Under the pieces are notes generated by a model. It saw only the letters and a program-made list of their open reading frames with translations, had not been told where the DNA came from and did no database searches. A stretch of DNA of 38,733 bases. Origin: a virus. Made by a program: the position numbers and the translations under genes. Each line of letters opens with the position of its first letter. The stretch's first letter is position 1. The stretch spans positions 1 to 38,733 of IMG/VR virus record IMGVR_UViG_3300006030_000012. One strand, given 5' to 3'. Shown piece by piece: positions 19,518-37,616 of the stretch.

Positions 19518-21674
19518 ATGTCCGAAGCAGTAACACAACAAAAACCGAAAGACATCAGCGAGCATTCGATGAAGCTCGCATTCGCTGTGGGCGGGCGCAC
19601 CGATGTCGCCCTCACAGTGAAGGACTACACGTTCCAAAAGCTCGCCGCTCGCCTGCGTTCGCCACGCCAAGGCGCCAAGGACGGCAGCTACTACATCCGC
19701 GGCGGTGATCTCGTCGCGCCAAAGCGTGCGGATGAAAACCTCCGCAGCGCAGAACTTCTGATCCTGGACGGTGATAGTCGGATCGACCCCGAGACCGGCG
19801 AGATCCTGTCCGGCGCTCCGCCGATGCCGGAGGTATGTCTAGAGCTTCGCGCTATGGGCATCGCCTACATCGCCCACACGTCGCACAGCTACAAGCCAGT
19901 GAACGGCGGCGGTCAGCCGCATTGGAAGTACCGGATCGTCATCCCGGCGCGTCTGAAGTCACAGGCAGAGCTGCAGGCTTGCGTCCAGTGGATCCTCGCG
20001 CAGCTGCACAGCCGCGGCGTGTGGCTGGCCGACGTGACTGAGAACAGCAAATGGTCGCAGCCGTGGTATCTGCCGCGCGTCGAGCAGCCTGACGCGTTCC
20101 TGTTCGACGTGAACGAGGGCGGTCACGCCTTCCCGGTCGGCGAGGCGATGGCCTGGGCTAAGGAACGAGCCAAGCGAGAGCAGGTCGAGCAGTCGATCGT
20201 CGTTGCTGCACCTGCGAAGGCGTCAAGCGACATTGACCAGTTCAACAAGGCGCATGGCCTCGAGTGGGTCCGATCGAAGCTTGAGAGCCAAGGCTATAAG
20301 TTCGTCTTCAAGGACGGAGACAAGTATCGCTACATCAGGCCAGGCTCAGAGAGCGGGACGCCTGGTGTCGTCGTCTTCCGCGGCGCCCGTGGTGATTATT
20401 GCGTGTTCAGTCACCACGGCGCTGCGGATCCCCTGTCGAACAAAGTCTCGGATCCGTTCGATCTCGTCGCGATCTTCGATCATGGGGGCGATCGCAAGGC
20501 CGCAGCGCGGGCCGTGCTGCCCAAGGCGCCAAGCGTGATTGAGCAGCTGGGGATCCTGTCGGGCCAGCAACCGCAACCTGTGCCGCAACCTGCGCTGCAA
20601 TCCGTACAGGTCGAGCAAACGCAACAAACGAAACGGCGCATTGACCTGGTGCCGTGGCACGACCTGCAGGACGTGAAGGTCAAGTGGCTCGTTAAGGACA
20701 TGCTTCCGGCCAAGAGTTTCGCCGCAATCTACGGCAGGTCTGGCGCAGGAAAATCGTTCTTCGCCATGTACCTAGCGGCAATGGTTGCATCAGGACGTGA
20801 AGCGTTCGGCCTAAGTGTCGAGCAGGGCGATGTCGTCTACCTGGCGCTGGAAGGCGGCGCCGGCTTACGCCGCAGGCGCGACGCGCTGATGCAGCGGTAC
20901 GACCTGCCGGATGATCTGCCTGTTCACTTCGTTAAGGCGCAGATGAACCTCCGCAGCACGCTCGACGACCTGCATGCGCTCATTGAGGTCATCCGCGAGC
21001 GGGGACTGCAGCCTGCCGTGATCTTCATCGATACGCTCGCCAGGGCATACGCAGGCGGCGAGGAGAACTCGTCAGCCGAGATGATGCAGTTCGTCAGCGT
21101 CATGGCGGCGCTGCAGGATGCGCTGGATTGTGCGGTCTGCGTCGTCCACCACAGCGGCAAGGACGAAACACGCGGCATGCGTGGATCCTCGGCGCTCCTA
21201 GCGGCGGTCGACGCCGAACTCGAGCTGACACGCATCAGTGACGACGACGCTACGGAGCCGGTCTGCACGGTCAAGTCGACAAAGCAGAAGGACGGCATGG
21301 ACGGCCTTTCCTGGTCGTTCCGTCTCGACCTGATGCACGTCTCTCCGCTGGATCCAGACGCCACATCTCTCGTCGTTCATCCGCTTAACGAGGCCCATGA
21401 GCCGAAGCGTCGCAAGCGGGCGTCAGGCACACAGAAGACGCTCCTCGACGCGCTGCAGATGGCGATCGCAGAGCAGGGTAAAGAGGTCGGATTGGACCAA
21501 ATCCCGCGGCATCAGAAGGTCGTCAACATTGAGGTTTGGCGCACATATTTCGACACGATGACCCATTTACAGGGTGACAGTGCGCGGCGGACGTTCGATC
21601 GTGAGGTGCCAAAGCTCGGACAAGCCGGACATATAAGCATGTGGGCGAAATGGTGTTGGATTTCAGAGGCTTAG
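19518..21674 (+). CDS. Primase-helicase (AEP-like N-terminus, RepA/AAA_25 helicase)
   Basis: A 718-residue replication protein. The N-terminal region has LLILDGDS (80-87), AHTSHSY (119-125) and KYRIVIP (137-143), spaced like an archaeo-eukaryotic-type primase. The helicase domain has Walker A GRSGAGKS (406-413) and Walker B VIFID (501-505), then VVHHSGKD and RGSSAL, typical of hexameric RepA-like helicases. The C-terminus (about 640-718) looks like a winged helix and is similar in style to the next protein. The two activities on one chain suffice for a self-contained replisome start. Its 3' end contains the first two iterons of the candidate origin. Confidence 0.85.
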   Translation: MSEAVTQQKPKDISEHSMKLAFAVGGRTDVALTVKDYTFQKLAARLRSPRQGAKDGSYYIRGGDLVAPKRADENLRSAELLILDGDSRIDPETGEILSGAPPMPEVCLELRAMGIAYIAHTSHSYKPVNGGGQPHWKYRIVIPARLKSQAELQACVQWILAQLHSRGVWLADVTENSKWSQPWYLPRVEQPDAFLFDVNEGGHAFPVGEAMAWAKERAKREQVEQSIVVAAPAKASSDIDQFNKAHGLEWVRSKLESQGYKFVFKDGDKYRYIRPGSESGTPGVVVFRGARGDYCVFSHHGAADPLSNKVSDPFDLVAIFDHGGDRKAAARAVLPKAPSVIEQLGILSGQQPQPVPQPALQSVQVEQTQQTKRRIDLVPWHDLQDVKVKWLVKDMLPAKSFAAIYGRSGAGKSFFAMYLAAMVASGREAFGLSVEQGDVVYLALEGGAGLRRRRDALMQRYDLPDDLPVHFVKAQMNLRSTLDDLHALIEVIRERGLQPAVIFIDTLARAYAGGEENSSAEMMQFVSVMAALQDALDCAVCVVHHSGKDETRGMRGSSALLAAVDAELELTRISDDDATEPVCTVKSTKQKDGMDGLSWSFRLDLMHVSPLDPDATSLVVHPLNEAHEPKRRKRASGTQKTLLDALQMAIAEQGKEVGLDQIPRHQKVVNIEVWRTYFDTMTHLQGDSARRTFDREVPKLGQAGHISMWAKWCWISEA

Positions 21675-21858
21675 ATATTCCGGACATTTACCGGACAAAT
21701 AAGCGGACAAGTTTTGGCGAGATTAAATATCCGGACGGACACGGATACAACACTAGGAAGTATCCGGTGTCCGGAATTAATCGGGGAGCAGATGAAGGAA
21801 GGTGTTGAGGGGATGAGAGACGCAATGGACAAATCGGACAATATGGACATAGTGGACA
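21617..21858 (+). repeat. Iteron-like GGACA repeat array, candidate replication origin
   Basis: Direct copies of YGGACA start at 21617, 21626, 21681, 21692, 21704, 21736, 21826, 21835, 21844 and 21853. CGGACG is at 21732 and an inverted TGTCCG at 21768-21773. The last four are spaced exactly 9 bp, the first two also 9 bp, and the middle group 11-12 bp. Short AT tracts (ATATAAG, AAATAAG, GATTAAATAT, GAATTAAT) lie between them. The array spans the end of the primase-helicase gene and the 210-bp gap before the next gene. Such iterons beside a replication gene are the hallmark of origins. Confidence 0.65.
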
Positions 21859-21884: not shown

Positions 21885-22163
21885 ATGAGGATCACACATA
21901 AGCCAGGTGCGAAGAAGGAGCCAGCAGTCACGTTCAGGCGCTGGCAGGCGCTGAAGGCGATCAAGGCTGCACACGACAAGGAAGCAGCAGACGTGGTGTC
22001 GGAGCGGGAATGGAGATCTGTGTTTTACGAGACCACGGACGCGCAGGGTGACAACAAGCGCAAGGCGTTTGAACGGTCTATCGCTGCGCTCGTCGCAGCT
22101 GGCTATGTCGAACAAGTGGATCGGTTCTCGTATCGGCTGGTGGAGGGTGCATGGGCCGAGTGA
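21885..22163 (+). CDS. Small winged-helix-like protein beside the iterons
   Basis: A 92-residue protein from ATG 21885, chosen because AAGGAG lies 9 nt upstream. Longer in-frame starts (TTG 21714, ATG 21792) would force the iterons to be coding. The sequence (TFRRWQALKAIKAAHDKEAA, then REWRSVFYE, then FERSIAALVAAGYVEQVDRFSYRLV) has the helix-helix-helix-beta pattern of a winged helix and resembles the C-terminal end of the preceding primase-helicase. It could be the iteron-binding initiator or a loader. This is inferred from position. Confidence 0.6.
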   Translation: MRITHKPGAKKEPAVTFRRWQALKAIKAAHDKEAADVVSEREWRSVFYETTDAQGDNKRKAFERSIAALVAAGYVEQVDRFSYRLVEGAWAE

Positions 22164-23233: not shown

Positions 23234-23429
23234 GGACGGCACAGAACGGTCACAGGAAGAGCTGGACGAGTATCTCGCCGGCATCATGGATAACTACCTC
23301 GCAGAGTGTGAGGCGTCGCCTGTGCGGTTCCTGGCAGTCACAAACAACGGACGGACATACAAGGTCAGGATGGAGAACAACGTGATCTGGTTTCCGTCCC
23401 TGGCAATCAAGGCGAGGAAGAAGCAGTGA
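23217..23429 (+). CDS. Small hypothetical protein upstream of terminase
   Basis: A 70-residue protein with an acidic helical N-terminus (TERSQEELDEYLAGIMDNYLA) followed by beta strands (VRFLAVTNNGRTYKVRMENNV). It overlaps the HNH gene and is coupled to terS by a GTGA overlap. No family recognised. Confidence 0.6.
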   Translation: MTNVFEDGTERSQEELDEYLAGIMDNYLAECEASPVRFLAVTNNGRTYKVRMENNVIWFPSLAIKARKKQ

Positions 23430-24109
23430 GCGAGGCGCAGGCCAAGATCGGGCGACCGTCGATTAGGTCGCGCGAGCTGATGCTCGAAATATGCGGGCGA
23501 ATTACTGAGGGCCGATCGCTGATCAGCATCGCACGCGACGAGGATATGCCGGCGCACTCTGCAATCTGGCGCTGGTTGAGCGAGGATGAAGAGTTCAAGG
23601 AGAACTACGCGCGCGCGATCCAGGCGCGAGCGATCAACCACGCCGAAGAAATAAGCGAGACAATTCAACAGGTTAAGCGGGGCGAGCTTCCGCCTGACGT
23701 TGGCCGCGTGACGATCGACGGCATGAAGTGGGTGGCTTCTCGTTTGTTGCCAAAGGTTTACGGTGACAAGCAGATCGTCGAGGCGAACGTCACGCACACG
23801 CATCAGCTGCATCTCGATGCGTTGCGCGCGCTGTCCGCGCGTCGATCGGGTAACGATGTCGGGTACATCGAGGGCCAAGTCATTGATATTACTGACGATC
23901 CAACCTTTTCGGGTGAAAGGCAGGATGCCTCGGTGCCGGCGATCGGGGCGGATCCGGCGGGCGCCGGAGGCCCCCCCGGCGGGGGCCTAGTACCGGGGGC
24001 CGGTCTCGCGCCGCCTACCGCTACTCGTACACGCAAAAAACGATCAGACCCCCCACCCCCCGGCACACCGAAACGCCGGCCCGCCAAAAAACCAAAAAAC
24101 GAAAAATGA
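23426..24109 (+). CDS. terS: Terminase small subunit, Sf6-like
   Basis: A 227-residue DNA-recognition subunit of the packaging motor. The N-terminal half has the Sf6-type pattern: LMLEICGRITEGRSLISIAR, then HSAIWRWLSEDEEFKENYAR, then WVASRLLPKVYGDK. The C-terminal 75 residues are Gly/Pro-rich and end in a highly basic tail (KKRSDPPPPGTPKRRPAKKP), which may bind DNA non-specifically. It starts with GTG coupled to the previous stop. A GC-rich perfect hairpin lies in its 3' third. Small terminase genes often contain the pac site. Confidence 0.85.
   Translation: MSEAQAKIGRPSIRSRELMLEICGRITEGRSLISIARDEDMPAHSAIWRWLSEDEEFKENYARAIQARAINHAEEISETIQQVKRGELPPDVGRVTIDGMKWVASRLLPKVYGDKQIVEANVTHTHQLHLDALRALSARRSGNDVGYIEGQVIDITDDPTFSGERQDASVPAIGADPAGAGGPPGGGLVPGAGLAPPTATRTRKKRSDPPPPGTPKRRPAKKPKNEK
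23968..23988. repeat. Strong GC inverted repeat in terS
   Basis: AGGCCCCC (23968-23975), loop CCGGC, GGGGGCCT (23981-23988): a perfect 8-bp all-but-two-GC stem. It encodes part of the Gly/Pro-rich linker. It could be a packaging-recognition structure or a result of low-complexity coding. Confidence 0.5.
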
Positions 24110-24456
24110 CGATCAGCTGGTTCCGGTACGTCAGGCATCACGACGTGCCTGCGCGCCAGGCGGAAGGCTGGGAGGTTGCCGCTGATTTGGGACCGACGCA
24201 TGGACAATGGTCGGTCCTAATGCAATGGTGCCGCTCGGGAAACCCGCCGGGATGTGAGACGGACGAACCGGATGCCGCAGCCGCCCCTATCGAAGCCGAT
24301 TGCGGAAGAGACGATCAATGCGTTGCTGAAGGCAATGCGCGCCGGCCACACGAAGGACAAGGCGATCCACCTGGCTGCGGCGAAGCTGGGGATCAGCACC
24401 GCGACGATCTACACGCGGCTGCGGGCGAATGGGCCGATCCAGCGGGCGCATCCTAA
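24106..24456 (+). CDS. Small hypothetical protein, 3' part overlapping the phosphoesterase gene
   Basis: A 116-residue frame. The first 46 residues (MTISWFRYVRHHDVPARQAEGW, then GPTHGQWSVLMQWCR; read as separate segments) look like a small phage protein seen next to terminase genes. From 24254 the frame runs out of phase through the start of the phosphoesterase gene, giving a Cys/Gly/Asp-rich tail of low plausibility. Either a loss of the original stop extended it or translation ends effectively here. Coupled to terS by an ATGA overlap. Confidence 0.55.
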   Translation: MTISWFRYVRHHDVPARQAEGWEVAADLGPTHGQWSVLMQWCRSGNPPGCETDEPDAAAAPIEADCGRDDQCVAEGNARRPHEGQGDPPGCGEAGDQHRDDLHAAAGEWADPAGAS

Positions 24457-25324
24457 GCTTTATCAGAAGTTTTTAGACGCCATCGTGCCGGTTGCGCGCG
24501 AGGTTGAGTTTGCGCCTGCCGTAAAGCCGCGGGTGACGGTGCGGGCCGGCGCCCAGCCCGATGGGGAGACGATTAGGGTCTGCGCGATCGGCGATGTGCA
24601 TGACAGCCCGACGCAGGACAAGCAGCGGTTCAAGTGGTTTGGGCGGCACATTGCGGCGACGCGGCCCGACAAGGTTGTGCAGATCGGTGACTTTGGAGAC
24701 TTCCACAGCTGCTCGAGCCATGAGCCGGTCGGATCTTTGAGCGCGGCTCTCAAGCCCTCCTACCGCCGAGATTTGGACAGTTTGGAAGAGGCTCTGACAC
24801 TTATCCACAAGGAAATTGCAGGCGGGAATATCGCCCTGCACCTGGTCGAAGGGAACCACGAGGACCGTGTTTACAGGTTCCAGGATCTGCATCCGGAAGC
24901 TGACGGCATGTTCGTCGAGGCGATGCACGACGTGCTGGCGCGGTTCGATTGGCGGTTCAAGTCGTATGGCGAGTTCCTGTTTATTGCTGGGGTCGGGTTT
25001 GTGCATGCGCCGAAAACGATTATGGGGCGCGCGTACAGTGGGAAGAACTCAGAGCAGCAGATTGGGAACGATGCGCTGTTTTCGATCGTGTGGGGCCACA
25101 CGCACCGCGCGGTGTTCAAGCAGGTTCCGAAAATTGGCCCGTCGCAGCACATTGAGGTTCTGAACGTCGGCAGCGCGATGCCGCAGGGCTATGTGGCGCC
25201 CTACGCTGGCACGGCGACGACGGGCTGGACCTACGGCGTGTTCGATCTTGAGCTGCGTGGCGGTCACATTGTGGGCCACCGCTTCATTGGCATGGACAGT
25301 CTGCGTGAGATGTACAGAGACTGA
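24254..25324 (+). CDS. Calcineurin-like metallophosphoesterase with N-terminal HTH
   Basis: A 356-residue protein from GTG 24254 (ATG 24272 is an alternative). Residues 15-70 contain a helix-turn-helix-like stretch (AAAKLGISTATIYTRLRANG). The phosphoesterase signatures follow: GDVHD (113-117), GDFGDF, EGNHED, and WGHTHRAVF, giving the Asp, Asn and His ligands of a two-metal site. Family members cut DNA, RNA or phosphoesters. The placement between the small and large terminase genes suggests a job in DNA processing or packaging, but the substrate is unknown. Confidence 0.85.
   Translation: MRRTNRMPQPPLSKPIAEETINALLKAMRAGHTKDKAIHLAAAKLGISTATIYTRLRANGPIQRAHPKLYQKFLDAIVPVAREVEFAPAVKPRVTVRAGAQPDGETIRVCAIGDVHDSPTQDKQRFKWFGRHIAATRPDKVVQIGDFGDFHSCSSHEPVGSLSAALKPSYRRDLDSLEEALTLIHKEIAGGNIALHLVEGNHEDRVYRFQDLHPEADGMFVEAMHDVLARFDWRFKSYGEFLFIAGVGFVHAPKTIMGRAYSGKNSEQQIGNDALFSIVWGHTHRAVFKQVPKIGPSQHIEVLNVGSAMPQGYVAPYAGTATTGWTYGVFDLELRGGHIVGHRFIGMDSLREMYRD
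24801..24809 (+). promoter_or_regulatory. Perfect DnaA box inside the phosphoesterase gene
   Basis: TTATCCACA, matching the consensus exactly, on the plus strand. It lies in coding sequence and may be chance. It is listed because the phage carries its own DnaA domain IV-like protein. Confidence 0.4.
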
Positions 25325-25334
25325 GGAGCTGGCA

Positions 25335-25547
25335 ATGGACGAGGAAGACGAAGTGGTCGTAGTTGGGCAGGATAGCGAGCTGGCGCAGCTGGCTGGCGCG
25401 TTGTGTGAGCTTGCGCAGCAAGTCGATGTGACGCGCGACGACGACGCGCGGATCTACTTGTTGCAGGCAATGGCGGGGATTACCTACATGCTTAACCCGC
25501 CGAAGGGGGAGGTTCATGTCATCGACGGCGGAAAAGCCAAGCGGTAA
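25335..25547 (+). CDS. Small acidic hypothetical protein upstream of terL
   Basis: A 70-residue protein preceded by GAGGAG. A very acidic N-terminus (MDEEDEVVVV) is followed by one long helix (LAQLAGALCELAQQVDVTRD) and a basic end. It overlaps the terminase start by 32 nt. No family recognised. The location suggests a packaging accessory. Confidence 0.65.
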   Translation: MDEEDEVVVVGQDSELAQLAGALCELAQQVDVTRDDDARIYLLQAMAGITYMLNPPKGEVHVIDGGKAKR

Positions 25548-26925
25548 CGATTTCGTTGCGTTCATCGAGCGTTACGAGAACGATCCGATCGGGTTTGTCG
25601 AGAATGTTCTCGAGGCGAAGCCATTGCCCTGGCAGAAGGACTTTCTGCAGGCGATTGCGCGCAAGGAGCGACGGATCTCGGTGCGAGCCGGCCACGGCGT
25701 GGGCAAGTCGACGGCGTGTTCCTGGGCGCTGATTTGGCACATGACGACGCGTTTTCCGCAGAAGAGCGTGGTGACGGCGCCGACATCCGCCCAGCTGTTC
25801 GATGCTCTGTATTCGGAGCTGAAGGCTTGGATCAACAAGCTGCCGCCCGTGCTGCGCGACAGCTACGAAGTGTTCTCCGATCGCATTGTGCTGAAGGGAG
25901 CGCCGGAGAGTTCGTTTATTTCGGCCAGGACTAGCTCGAGCGAGAGGCCGGAGGCGTTGGCCGGCGTCCATTCCGAACACGTTTTGCTGGTGGTGGACGA
26001 AGCATCAGCCGTTCCGGAGGCGGTTTTCGAGGCGGCGGCTGGTTCGATGTCTGGTCATTCGGCATCGACAATTCTCATCAGCAACCCGACGCGAAATTCG
26101 GGTTTGTTTTACAAGACGCATCACGATCTTGCATCTGATTGGTATCGGATGCACGTCTCTTGTTTGAATATTCCGCTCGTTTCTGCTGACTTCGTCTCGC
26201 AGATCAAGGCGACATACGGAGACGAGAGCAACGCGTTCCGGATTCGCGTCCTTGGGGAGTTCGCGCTTGCGGATGACGACACCCTGATCCCCGCGGAGCT
26301 GGTCGATGGAGCCATTTCACGCGACATCAGCATTAATTCTTCTGAGCCTCTTGTTTTTGGTCTCGACGTGGCGCGTTTTGGTAGCGATCGGACCGCTTTG
26401 GTGAAGCGGAAAGGCAACGTCGTCATCGAAGTGAAGAGCTGGGGCGGTCTCGACACGATGCAAGTTGTCGGCGCGATCGTGAACGAGGCGAAATTGGACC
26501 GGCCCGACGAGATTTGCGTCGACACGATCGGTCTCGGATCCGGTGTCGCCGATCGGTTGCGCGAATTAGGCATGAATGTGCGTGATGTGAACGTCGCCGA
26601 GAGTTCGGCGATGAACCCGAACGCAAACAAGCTGCGCGACGAGCTATGGTTGGCGGTGAAGGAGTGGCTTGCGACGAAATCTGTGAAATTGCCGGCAGAT
26701 GATCAGCTGCGGCATGAGCTGGTGGCGCCTCGATACACGTTTACGTCAAGCGGCAAGGTGCAAGTTGAGAGCAAAGACAGTATGAGAAAGCGCGGCATGC
26801 GTTCGCCTGACTTGGCAGACGCGTTGTGCTTGTCGTTTGCGTCGAATGCGGCGATGGTTGGCGGGCGTGCGCCCAAGTGGGTGCCTGGTCAGGCTCTCAA
26901 GCGCCATATCAGAGGCGTGGTCTAG
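25516..26925 (+). CDS. terL: Terminase large subunit
   Basis: A 469-residue packaging motor ATPase and nuclease. Walker A is GHGVGKST (59-66), Walker B VLLVVDE (156-162), with the coupling motif ILISNPTR (186-193). The nuclease domain opens with FGLDVARFGSDRTAL (Asp about 284), and further acidic residues follow in CVDTIGLGSGV and PDLADALCLSF, as in RNase H-like terminase nucleases. GGGGGAGG lies before the ATG. The gene is directly followed by promoter site E, so head genes can be transcribed separately from it. Confidence 0.95.
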   Translation: MSSTAEKPSGNDFVAFIERYENDPIGFVENVLEAKPLPWQKDFLQAIARKERRISVRAGHGVGKSTACSWALIWHMTTRFPQKSVVTAPTSAQLFDALYSELKAWINKLPPVLRDSYEVFSDRIVLKGAPESSFISARTSSSERPEALAGVHSEHVLLVVDEASAVPEAVFEAAAGSMSGHSASTILISNPTRNSGLFYKTHHDLASDWYRMHVSCLNIPLVSADFVSQIKATYGDESNAFRIRVLGEFALADDDTLIPAELVDGAISRDISINSSEPLVFGLDVARFGSDRTALVKRKGNVVIEVKSWGGLDTMQVVGAIVNEAKLDRPDEICVDTIGLGSGVADRLRELGMNVRDVNVAESSAMNPNANKLRDELWLAVKEWLATKSVKLPADDQLRHELVAPRYTFTSSGKVQVESKDSMRKRGMRSPDLADALCLSFASNAAMVGGRAPKWVPGQALKRHIRGVV

Positions 26926-35887: not shown

Positions 35888-36790
35888 ATGGCTGACAGTT
35901 ATACAACCAACCTAAACCTCACAAAGCCAGAGGTTGGCGGAAGTCGTGACACCTGGGGAACCAAGGTCAATGGCGACCTAGACAGCATTGATACCGTCTT
36001 TAATGCGGCTGGCAACGGCACGTCTGTCGGCCTCAATGTTGGCACTGGCAAGACGCTGACGATCAATGGAACCGTCAGCGCGACGACGGCAGTCAATCTC
36101 GACACAGGTCTTGTTATCAACGAGAGCGGCGCCGACAAGGATGTCCGCATCGAAGGCGACACTGACGCAAACCTTCTCTTCACCGATGCGTCGACCGATC
36201 GCGTCGGCATTGGCACAAACACCCCATCAGTAAAGCTTGACGTTGCCGGACCAAGTGGGGTTATCGCCCGTTTTAAGTTTGCTACTGGCGGATCTGCACA
36301 AATCCAAAGCTACTCGGGTGGTGTTGAGTTCACAACGCCAGATGCAGATGCCTATTACGGATCTGCTTTTGCCACAGGTGCTGTGCGTATTTACTCCGGT
36401 AACGCAGAGCGTATTCGTCTGGCAAGCGATGGAAAAGTAGGAATTGGAACGCAGTCTCCCGCAGCGATCTTAGACGTTGGCGGAAACATCGCGCAGAACG
36501 CTGTCGCCGTATCTGCGTCTGCTGTCGACTGCTCTGCAGGAAACTACTTCACGAAGACTGCAACCGGCGCATTGACCTGGACGTTTACAAACGTCCCGGC
36601 ATCTCGCGCGGTTGCCTTTGCTCTTGCGCTAACAAACGGTGGCGCCGGAACACAAACATGGCCGGCTGCAGTTGTGTGGAACGGTGGATCTGCTCCTACG
36701 CTTCAAACAAGCGGAACTGACATCCTGGTATTCATTACGAGTGACGGCGGCACAACGTGGCGCGGCGTTCGCGCATGGAAGCAGGCGTAA
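35888..36790 (+). CDS. Tail fibre protein
   Basis: A 300-residue protein. The N-terminus ([20 protein letters not shown], then [14 protein letters not shown]) is a common attachment domain of podovirus tail fibres. The stalk includes [20 protein letters not shown], a typical fibre repeat (VGIGT.SP...LDV) that occurs twice (again [14 protein letters not shown]). The C-terminal 100 residues ([20 protein letters not shown] and onward) would form the receptor-facing tip or the base for the next protein. Confidence 0.8.
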
Positions 36791-36794
36791 GACA

Positions 36795-37616
36795 ATGAAC
36801 GCTCAACTTCTTGAACTTATTTCTGGATCAAGCAGCAATGACGCTGCTCCTCCAGGTCAAGAGGCATACACAACGCCTGGTACTTATACATGGGTTGCAC
36901 CGTCTGGCGTGACAAGCGTGTGCGTTGTTTGCGTTGGTGGCGGCGGCGGCGGCGCAAGCAGCGGGAATAATCCCGGTGGCGGTGGCGCACTTGCGTATGC
37001 GAACAACATAAGCGTCACTTCAGGCTCTTCATATACCGTTGTCGTTGGCTCTGGAGGCGGGGTTGGAAGCGACGGAGGTAACTCAAGTTTTAATGGAACT
37101 ACAGTAAGAGCGGGGGGTGGCGCCCGAGGTGTAGGTACAAGCGCAGCATCTACCGCTGCCGGAGGTTCTGTTCTAAATGGGTCGGGCGGCGCTGGAGGCC
37201 CAGCTAACGGAGGCAACGGTGGCAGCGGTGGCGGCGGTGGTGGCGCTGGTGGTTACTCGGGAACTGGCGGTACTGGAGGAGGTGCCGGCTATGACGGAAC
37301 AGCTGGAAGTGGTGGCGGTGGCGGCGGCGGCGGCTCTGGAAACGGGAGTTTTGGTGGTGGCGGCGGCGGCGTTGGCATTTTAGGCCAAGGGAGTAACGGA
37401 TCTGGTGGTGCTTTTAATTCTGACGGTGGAGCAGGTTTTACTGGTGGCGGAGGGTCCGGCGGAAGCAGAGCGTCTACTAAAAACGGCGGTGCTTATGGCG
37501 GCGGCGGCGCTGGTGGATACAGCTCCAATCTATCAGGTGTTGGAGCAAATGGCGCTGTGAGAATAATTTGGGGCGCAGGACGCGCCTTCCCTTCAACTAA
37601 TACGGGGAACGTCTAA
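36795..37616 (+). CDS. Glycine-rich distal fibre/adhesin protein
   Basis: A 273-residue protein from ATG 36795; a longer in-frame start at 36639 lies inside the fibre gene. The N-terminal 50 residues include YTTPGTYTWVAPSGVTSVCV, the typical entry to a Gly_rich domain. Residues about 55-255 consist of runs of three to eight Gly with Ser, Ala and Asn, as in phage tip adhesins that build polyglycine-helix sandwiches and recognise receptors through short loops. It ends GAVRIIWG, the usual closing strand of the family. Repetitive coding DNA could recombine and change specificity. Confidence 0.7.
   Translation: MNAQLLELISGSSSNDAAPPGQEAYTTPGTYTWVAPSGVTSVCVVCVGGGGGGASSGNNPGGGGALAYANNISVTSGSSYTVVVGSGGGVGSDGGNSSFNGTTVRAGGGARGVGTSAASTAAGGSVLNGSGGAGGPANGGNGGSGGGGGGAGGYSGTGGTGGGAGYDGTAGSGGGGGGGGSGNGSFGGGGGGVGILGQGSNGSGGAFNSDGGAGFTGGGGSGGSRASTKNGGAYGGGGAGGYSSNLSGVGANGAVRIIWGAGRAFPSTNTGNV

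Follow-up and report, generated by a model that had tools for sequence, protein, structure and literature searches.

A repeat array behind the winged-helix end of a phage RepA-type primase-helicase is a probable replication origin whose repeats covary with recognition-helix residues

An array of short direct repeats that begins in the last codons of a phage primase-helicase gene and continues just behind it is very probably where the phage's own primase-helicase docks to begin genome replication, a reading made without data on binding or initiation. The array lies in the window analyzed here, a stretch of 38,733 bases that is the complete record of an uncultivated phage contig. The features on which the argument draws are as follows.

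19518–21674, + strand: primase-helicase of 718 residues, with an N-terminal domain, a RepA-type SF4 helicase and a C-terminal winged helix
21405–21671, + strand: C-terminal winged helix, the proposed iteron reader (AF2 model, Foldseek, VIA-align)
21585–21590, + strand: the two codons for R690 and R691, which occupy specificity positions -1 and 0 where the recognition helix (residues 687-702) begins; from covariation and models
21617–21631, + strand: two CGGACA iterons, 9 bp apart, in the last primase-helicase codons, kept in relatives with different codons
21681–21709, + strand: three direct CGGACA iterons at 11-12 bp spacing, beside AT tracts
21730–21775, no strand: imperfect inverted repeat (hairpin) with an iteron at 21736-21741, an inverted iteron at 21768-21773 and a CACTAGG centre
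21826–21858, + strand: second array, that of the 92-residue gene, with four YGGACA copies at an exact 9-bp period, shared only by relatives L010 and L018
21871–21876, + strand: AAGGAG, ribosome site of the 92-residue gene
21885–22163, + strand: stand-alone winged-helix protein of 92 residues, a paralogue of the primase-helicase C-terminus

The earlier note on this DNA had taken eleven copies of the repeat within 21617-21858, ten of them direct YGGACA and one inverted, for the iterons of a candidate phage origin. Every copy lies where it had been placed, with spacings of 9 bp at 21617/21626 and 11-12 bp at 21681/21692/21704 and an exact 9-bp period at 21826/21835/21844/21853. The array does begin inside the primase-helicase gene, since its first two copies precede the stop codon at 21672-21674, and it ends 26 bp upstream of the ATG at 21885, which the AAGGAG serves. 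The further claim, that these are the iterons of an origin, draws its support from homology and covariation and not from experiment. Chance clustering is ruled out by dinucleotide shuffles (YGGACA occurs 10 times within 242 bp, and no more than 4 times in any of 200 shuffles), and because the motif is not enriched across the whole 38.7 kb (37 found, 40 expected), the array is a local one. All copies in the main array are CGGACA, and three of the four in the second array are TGGACA. An iteron-type origin calls for a beyond-chance cluster of short direct repeats next to or in an initiator gene, and the window meets this description.

Absence of the repeats from close relatives had been named as the outcome that would refute the origin reading. 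Eighteen close relatives were fetched, and all 16 that extend past the helicase gene keep an array at this place, with CGGACA in most, GGGACA in L011, L017 and L021, and CGTGACA in L022. Because a DNA-level search of the phage collection gave one weak match only, we used protein-based searches; the roughly 480 loci collected, from bacterial genomes as well as viral contigs and phage records, were reduced to 298 non-redundant cases. An array, defined as a single hexamer occurring at least six times in the 310 bp around the helicase stop codon, is present in 202 of these 298 relatives, compared with 3 of 298 helicase-internal and 3 of 274 downstream control stretches; 200 of the 202 also exceed their own shuffles, and these show 72 different core hexamers, varying by lineage. 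Re-anchoring on the winged helix gave 18 more stretches with at least six copies (two of them, L252 and L365, doubtful), and at 16 of these 18 rescued loci the reading frame continues for 51-146 codons past the winged helix, with the array directly behind the winged-helix codons and in coding DNA. Judged by its position at these long-frame loci, the array follows the DNA-binding domain and not the stop codon. No clear array was found behind the winged helix in 80 of the 298 relatives. A marine clade (L286-L335) has the C-terminal winged helix and no recognizable array behind the gene, and its origin may lie elsewhere. A two-by-two table of array presence against winged-helix presence is not significant (p 0.07), because the domain is present in almost every relative and anchoring on the stop codon had overlooked some arrays.

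Alignment of relatives had also been suggested as a way of seeing whether the repeats persist while the codons drift, and they do. In-gene copies in CGGACA relatives read GGA CAx (Gly-Gln or Gly-His), while the in-gene copy is GGG ACA (Gly-Thr) in L011, L021 and L060 and CGG ACA (Arg-Thr) in L057. The lineage's own motif is held at the same place in another codon phase, which points, from codon comparison alone, to selection on the DNA at these copies. Array and protein also change together on a larger scale. Between L022 and the window the helicase domain is 98% identical and the winged helix 29%, the array has gone from CGGACA to CGTGACA, and the gene after the array is again the same; L022 is a natural domain swap in which winged helix and array have been exchanged together. 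L021 and L010 share an N-terminus (97%) and differ in helicase, winged helix and array. Second copies of the winged helix lie beside the helicase gene at L284:955-1312 and L078:5056-5490, one of them apparently frameshifted, and are possibly remnants of cassette exchange.

The helicase domain of the primase-helicase matches Pfam AAA_25 (E 4.7e-41, residues 387-550), and the only solved sequence relative is RSF1010 RepA (1G8Y; phmmer E 7.5e-7), with whose structure the core aligns in VIA-align at Z 19.9 and 3.6 A over 228 residues. A RecA-fold core homologous to RepA is what marks a hexameric SF4 helicase of the RepA (RSF1010) type, and it is present. The N-terminal domain contains a conserved DxD (D84 and D86, invariant) and in the window has no Pfam or PDB sequence match. 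Its position is occupied by Prim-Pol PF09250 in L060, L067 and Rhizobium phage 16-3 (L103), at E 1e-21 to 1e-30, and L085 has a weak Toprim match there; because relatives carry these domains at the same place, a primase role is likely by analogy, although not shown. This N-terminal module (19518-20240 in the window) is exchanged among relatives as Prim-Pol, the weak Toprim match or the window-type DxD domain, and helicase, winged helix and array stay in place while it swaps (L060, L067, L103 and L085 compared with the window). The array of Rhizobium phage 16-3 (L103) is of the GTGACA type.

At the other end of the protein, the last 95 residues give an AF2 model (pLDDT 85) with the order helix, strand, helix, helix and two strands. 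The winged-helix profile has no meaningful match among PDB sequences; the model matches CRP/NtcA, ORC1 and other winged helices in Foldseek and VIA-align. The fold is common and by itself uninformative on function. Winged helices are typical repressors, and the best Foldseek matches are the DNA-binding domains of CRP/NtcA, so the array might instead be a transcriptional operator, through which the winged helix represses or activates downstream genes while replication starts elsewhere; the one promoter-like match between 21400 and 22200 (21826-21853) also falls on the second array, which precedes a winged-helix gene. A single such match, however, is no more than chance would give (0.5 expected), and the main array is tied to the helicase's winged-helix end in dozens of lineages whatever gene follows, and in other loci lies inside coding DNA. 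We consider an operator improbable. Returning to the origin reading, the earlier note had left open which protein binds; from the covariation we assign the main array to the C-terminus of the primase-helicase, binding itself being inferred.

This assignment can be followed to individual residues of the recognition helix. Position 0 was defined as the residue two before the conserved aromatic of that helix (R691 of A-R-R-T-F in the window), with R690 at position -1. Among winged-helix pairs that are 75-100% identical, those with different motifs have different residues at position 0 in 97% of cases, and those with the same motif in 2%. Above 75% identity, the pairs that differ in motif belong mostly to one clade, and the pair counts are therefore not independent; taken by clade, position 0 differs in 95% (different motif) versus 18% (same motif) in the CGTNAC clade, and outside it, at an identity of at least 60%, position -1 or 0 differs in 86% versus 7%. 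Within one clade, Q at position 0 goes with CGTGAC (5/5), T with CGTCAC (8/8) and V with CGTTAC (2/2), and M with CGTAAC after AAAR and with CGTCAC after SAAR or SSAR. In other clades residues -1 and 0 pair KK with GGG (12 clusters), QK with CGG (3), RQ with GTG (8) and EK with GAG, and between L168 and L172, which are 93% identical, a change from K to Q accompanies the change from GGGACA to CGGACA. When residues -1 and 0 were used to predict the base triplet in a leave-cluster-out test, 44 of 75 cases were correct (shuffles: mean 18.7, maximum 29), the best result among the adjacent residue pairs tried. The code is not one-to-one, as M at position 0 occurs with either CGTAAC or CGTCAC and RQ is not confined to a single motif. 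It appears from these comparisons that two adjacent recognition-helix residues track the variable iteron bases by a largely readable rule. A Mantel-Haenszel scoring over all pairs, whose first motif rule omitted the CGTNAC clade, was dropped because it favored near-invariant columns through rare outliers; the stratified close-pair and leave-cluster-out tests replaced it.

A second conserved element, absent from the earlier note, lies at the center of the main array, where 21730-21775 is predicted to form a single-stranded DNA hairpin of -13.2 kcal/mol (z -4.0). Across 200 arrays, the iterons converge on a center of 6-45 nt in 194, the longest stem of the center averages 5.9 pairs versus 3.2 in shuffles, and CT[AT]0-4AG occurs in 145 against 25.7 expected. 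In the window and L013 the inner arms are CGGATAC/GTATCCG, and in L005 and L020 they are CGGACAC/GTGTCCG. Both arms have thus changed together while the direct iterons of the window are still CGGACA, which suggests, on the strength of these four loci, that base pairing itself, and not protein binding alone, is maintained. A stable hairpin behind a gene could also be the intrinsic terminator of the replication operon, with the repeats incidental to it; there is no T tract and no terminator-like match, however, the stem is built of inverted iterons around a center whose sequence is conserved across lineages, and the repeats exceed controls, so that we give a terminator almost no credence. Nor do we favor a partition or incompatibility site (a parS-like or handcuffing locus) over a start site. 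Short direct-repeat arrays do serve as parS or incompatibility loci, and parS direct repeats downstream of repA have been described (PMC7157519), but no partition gene was recognized among the neighboring ORFs searched, the array covaries with the winged helix of the helicase itself, and the conserved hairpin center fits an origin better; a partition role for the main array seems very unlikely.

The 92-residue protein would add a second reader to the origin proposed here. The profile of the primase-helicase C-terminal domain matches it (E 2.3e-8) and its L010 orthologue (1.4e-11), and BLASTP aligns it to the primase-helicase C-terminus at 38% over 39 aa; this paralogy was not part of the earlier note. 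The window, L010 and L018 are the only genomes with the second array and alone among close relatives carry the 92-residue gene. The recognition helix of the protein reads NKRKAF, and RK at positions -1 and 0 accompanies GGG or CGG iterons in ten clusters and other motifs in a few. Comparison of the gene with that of L010 (36 synonymous and 27 nonsynonymous differences) suggests that it is maintained. On these grounds the 92-residue copy is the most likely reader of the second array, and most likely its binding, which is inferred in the absence of binding data, tunes its own expression or origin firing. Upstream of the gene its reading frame stays open across the second array as far as in-frame ATGs at 21825 and 21792, which had not been noted before, and the 9-bp period therefore keeps step with the codons as well, placing GAC at every third one. 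The second array could accordingly be a coding repeat (DxxDxxDxxD) of an N-terminally longer product and not a binding site, the frame being in phase from ATG 21792 or 21825 in both the window and L010. We regard this as unlikely without dismissing it: the strong ribosome site serves ATG 21885, and in L010 the third copy stays CGGACA even though its leading codon has changed from ATG to ACG.

We propose that the primase-helicase uses its C-terminal winged helix to bind the CGGACA iterons just 3' of its own gene, and that this binding would load rings of the RepA-type helicase onto the DNA. The spacers, which are AT-rich, would open together with the central inverted repeat, and at the exposed hairpin or single-stranded site the N-terminal domain could synthesize the first primer. 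Winged helix and array would move and change as one cassette, with two adjacent recognition-helix residues setting the variable bases, and the second array (21826-21858) would be the site of the 92-residue winged-helix copy, probably an autoregulator or a brake of initiation. The array, its conservation, the covariation, the cassette swap and the fold are observed; binding, loading, priming and the role of the 92-residue protein are inferences, and that replication starts at the array is inferred from architecture and precedent. With that understood, we hold with good confidence that 21617-21775 is the origin of a self-loading initiator working as in this whole scheme, the role of the second array included. 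More tentatively, and as a possibility that we would not rely on, winged helix and array may form an exchangeable origin-identity cassette under diversifying selection, which would prevent cross-firing among co-infecting phages and prophages by means of a compact residue-to-base code, with stand-alone copies such as the 92-residue protein acting as origin-specific brakes or superinfection-exclusion factors.

A change of GC skew had been proposed as a check of the origin. In five related genomes skew rises from about 0.06 or less left of the array to 0.13-0.14 right of it, which fits an origin but is only suggestive, since gene bias is possible and could be shared among related genomes. Third-position GC skew per gene was uneven and is not counted as evidence. 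Elsewhere in the window, an ORF at 36639-37616 contains densely packed GGCGGC repeats, with 10 direct copies close to 37.3 kb, has a third-position GC skew of -0.36 and probably encodes a glycine-rich structural protein. A calcineurin-like phosphoesterase gene (24254-25324) lies between the genes for the small (23426-24109) and large (25516-26925) terminase subunits.

The origins of most metagenomic phages are unknown. Looking right behind the winged-helix codons of RepA-type primase-helicases gives a candidate origin in more than 200 phages and prophages without any experiment, and the natural variation links about 25 base triplets to recognition-helix residues, a rare data set for the DNA-recognition code of winged helices. 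Binding assays could test the code directly, and it could become a basis for programmable replicons that are orthogonal to one another. Within the open-access literature, to which our search was confined (closed journals and preprints were outside its scope), we found no description of the array family or the code, and the residue-to-base code and its scale look new.

Iterons and initiator specificity residues also co-diversify between strains in geminiviruses, whose Rep differs from the phage system in being a rolling-circle HUH endonuclease without homology to it. Closer in design are SaPI Rep and SCCmec Cch2, whose C-terminal domain binds short iterons that lie immediately 3' of the gene encoding it (PMC7581432, which cites Ubeda et al. 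2007). They share with the phage system as proposed a self-loading helicase, C-terminal iteron binding and a primase fused or adjacent, and differ in having helicases of the DUF927 or D5/Primase_Cterm type, whereas that of the phage is a RecA-fold RepA-type SF4 enzyme; a conserved hairpin center and a cross-lineage residue-to-base code are not described in the available part (PMC7581432). Iterons of the AAGTGG(G) type in L406, L407 and L470 (the last in Kluyvera) resemble the AAGTG given there for SCCmec Cch2, and the helicase family differs. P4 alpha is likewise a primase-helicase whose C-terminal origin-binding winged helix reads iterons (PMC4234260), but its primase is of the Toprim type. 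Of what characterizes the self-loading initiators of the SaPI-Rep and P4-alpha kind, the phage protein has the C-terminal DNA-binding domain with an array downstream (origin function being inferred) and lacks an SF3/AAA+ helicase of those families; its helicase is of the AAA_25/RepA type, making it a functional analogue and not a member. Mycobacteriophage RepA origins (PMC7157519) were set aside because they involve a different RepA family. ORF904 of pRN1 joins primase, helicase and a C-terminal winged helix in one protein, as is inferred for the phage, with a stem-loop directly downstream of the gene that is required for replication, but the helicase is SF3, the plasmid is archaeal and no iterons were found (PMC4234260). 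In the IncQ plasmid RSF1010, with oriV, ssiA and ssiB, a RepA-related helicase works with iterons and stem-loops, and iteron reader (RepC), helicase (RepA) and ssi-specific primase (RepB') are all plasmid-encoded, as the proposed counterparts of the phage are self-encoded (PMC4234260); they are three separate proteins where the phage has one fused polypeptide, and the phage iterons are hexamers to heptamers. By analogy, the phage system would unite features of SaPI, pRN1 and RSF1010 in a single polypeptide with a RepA-type helicase.
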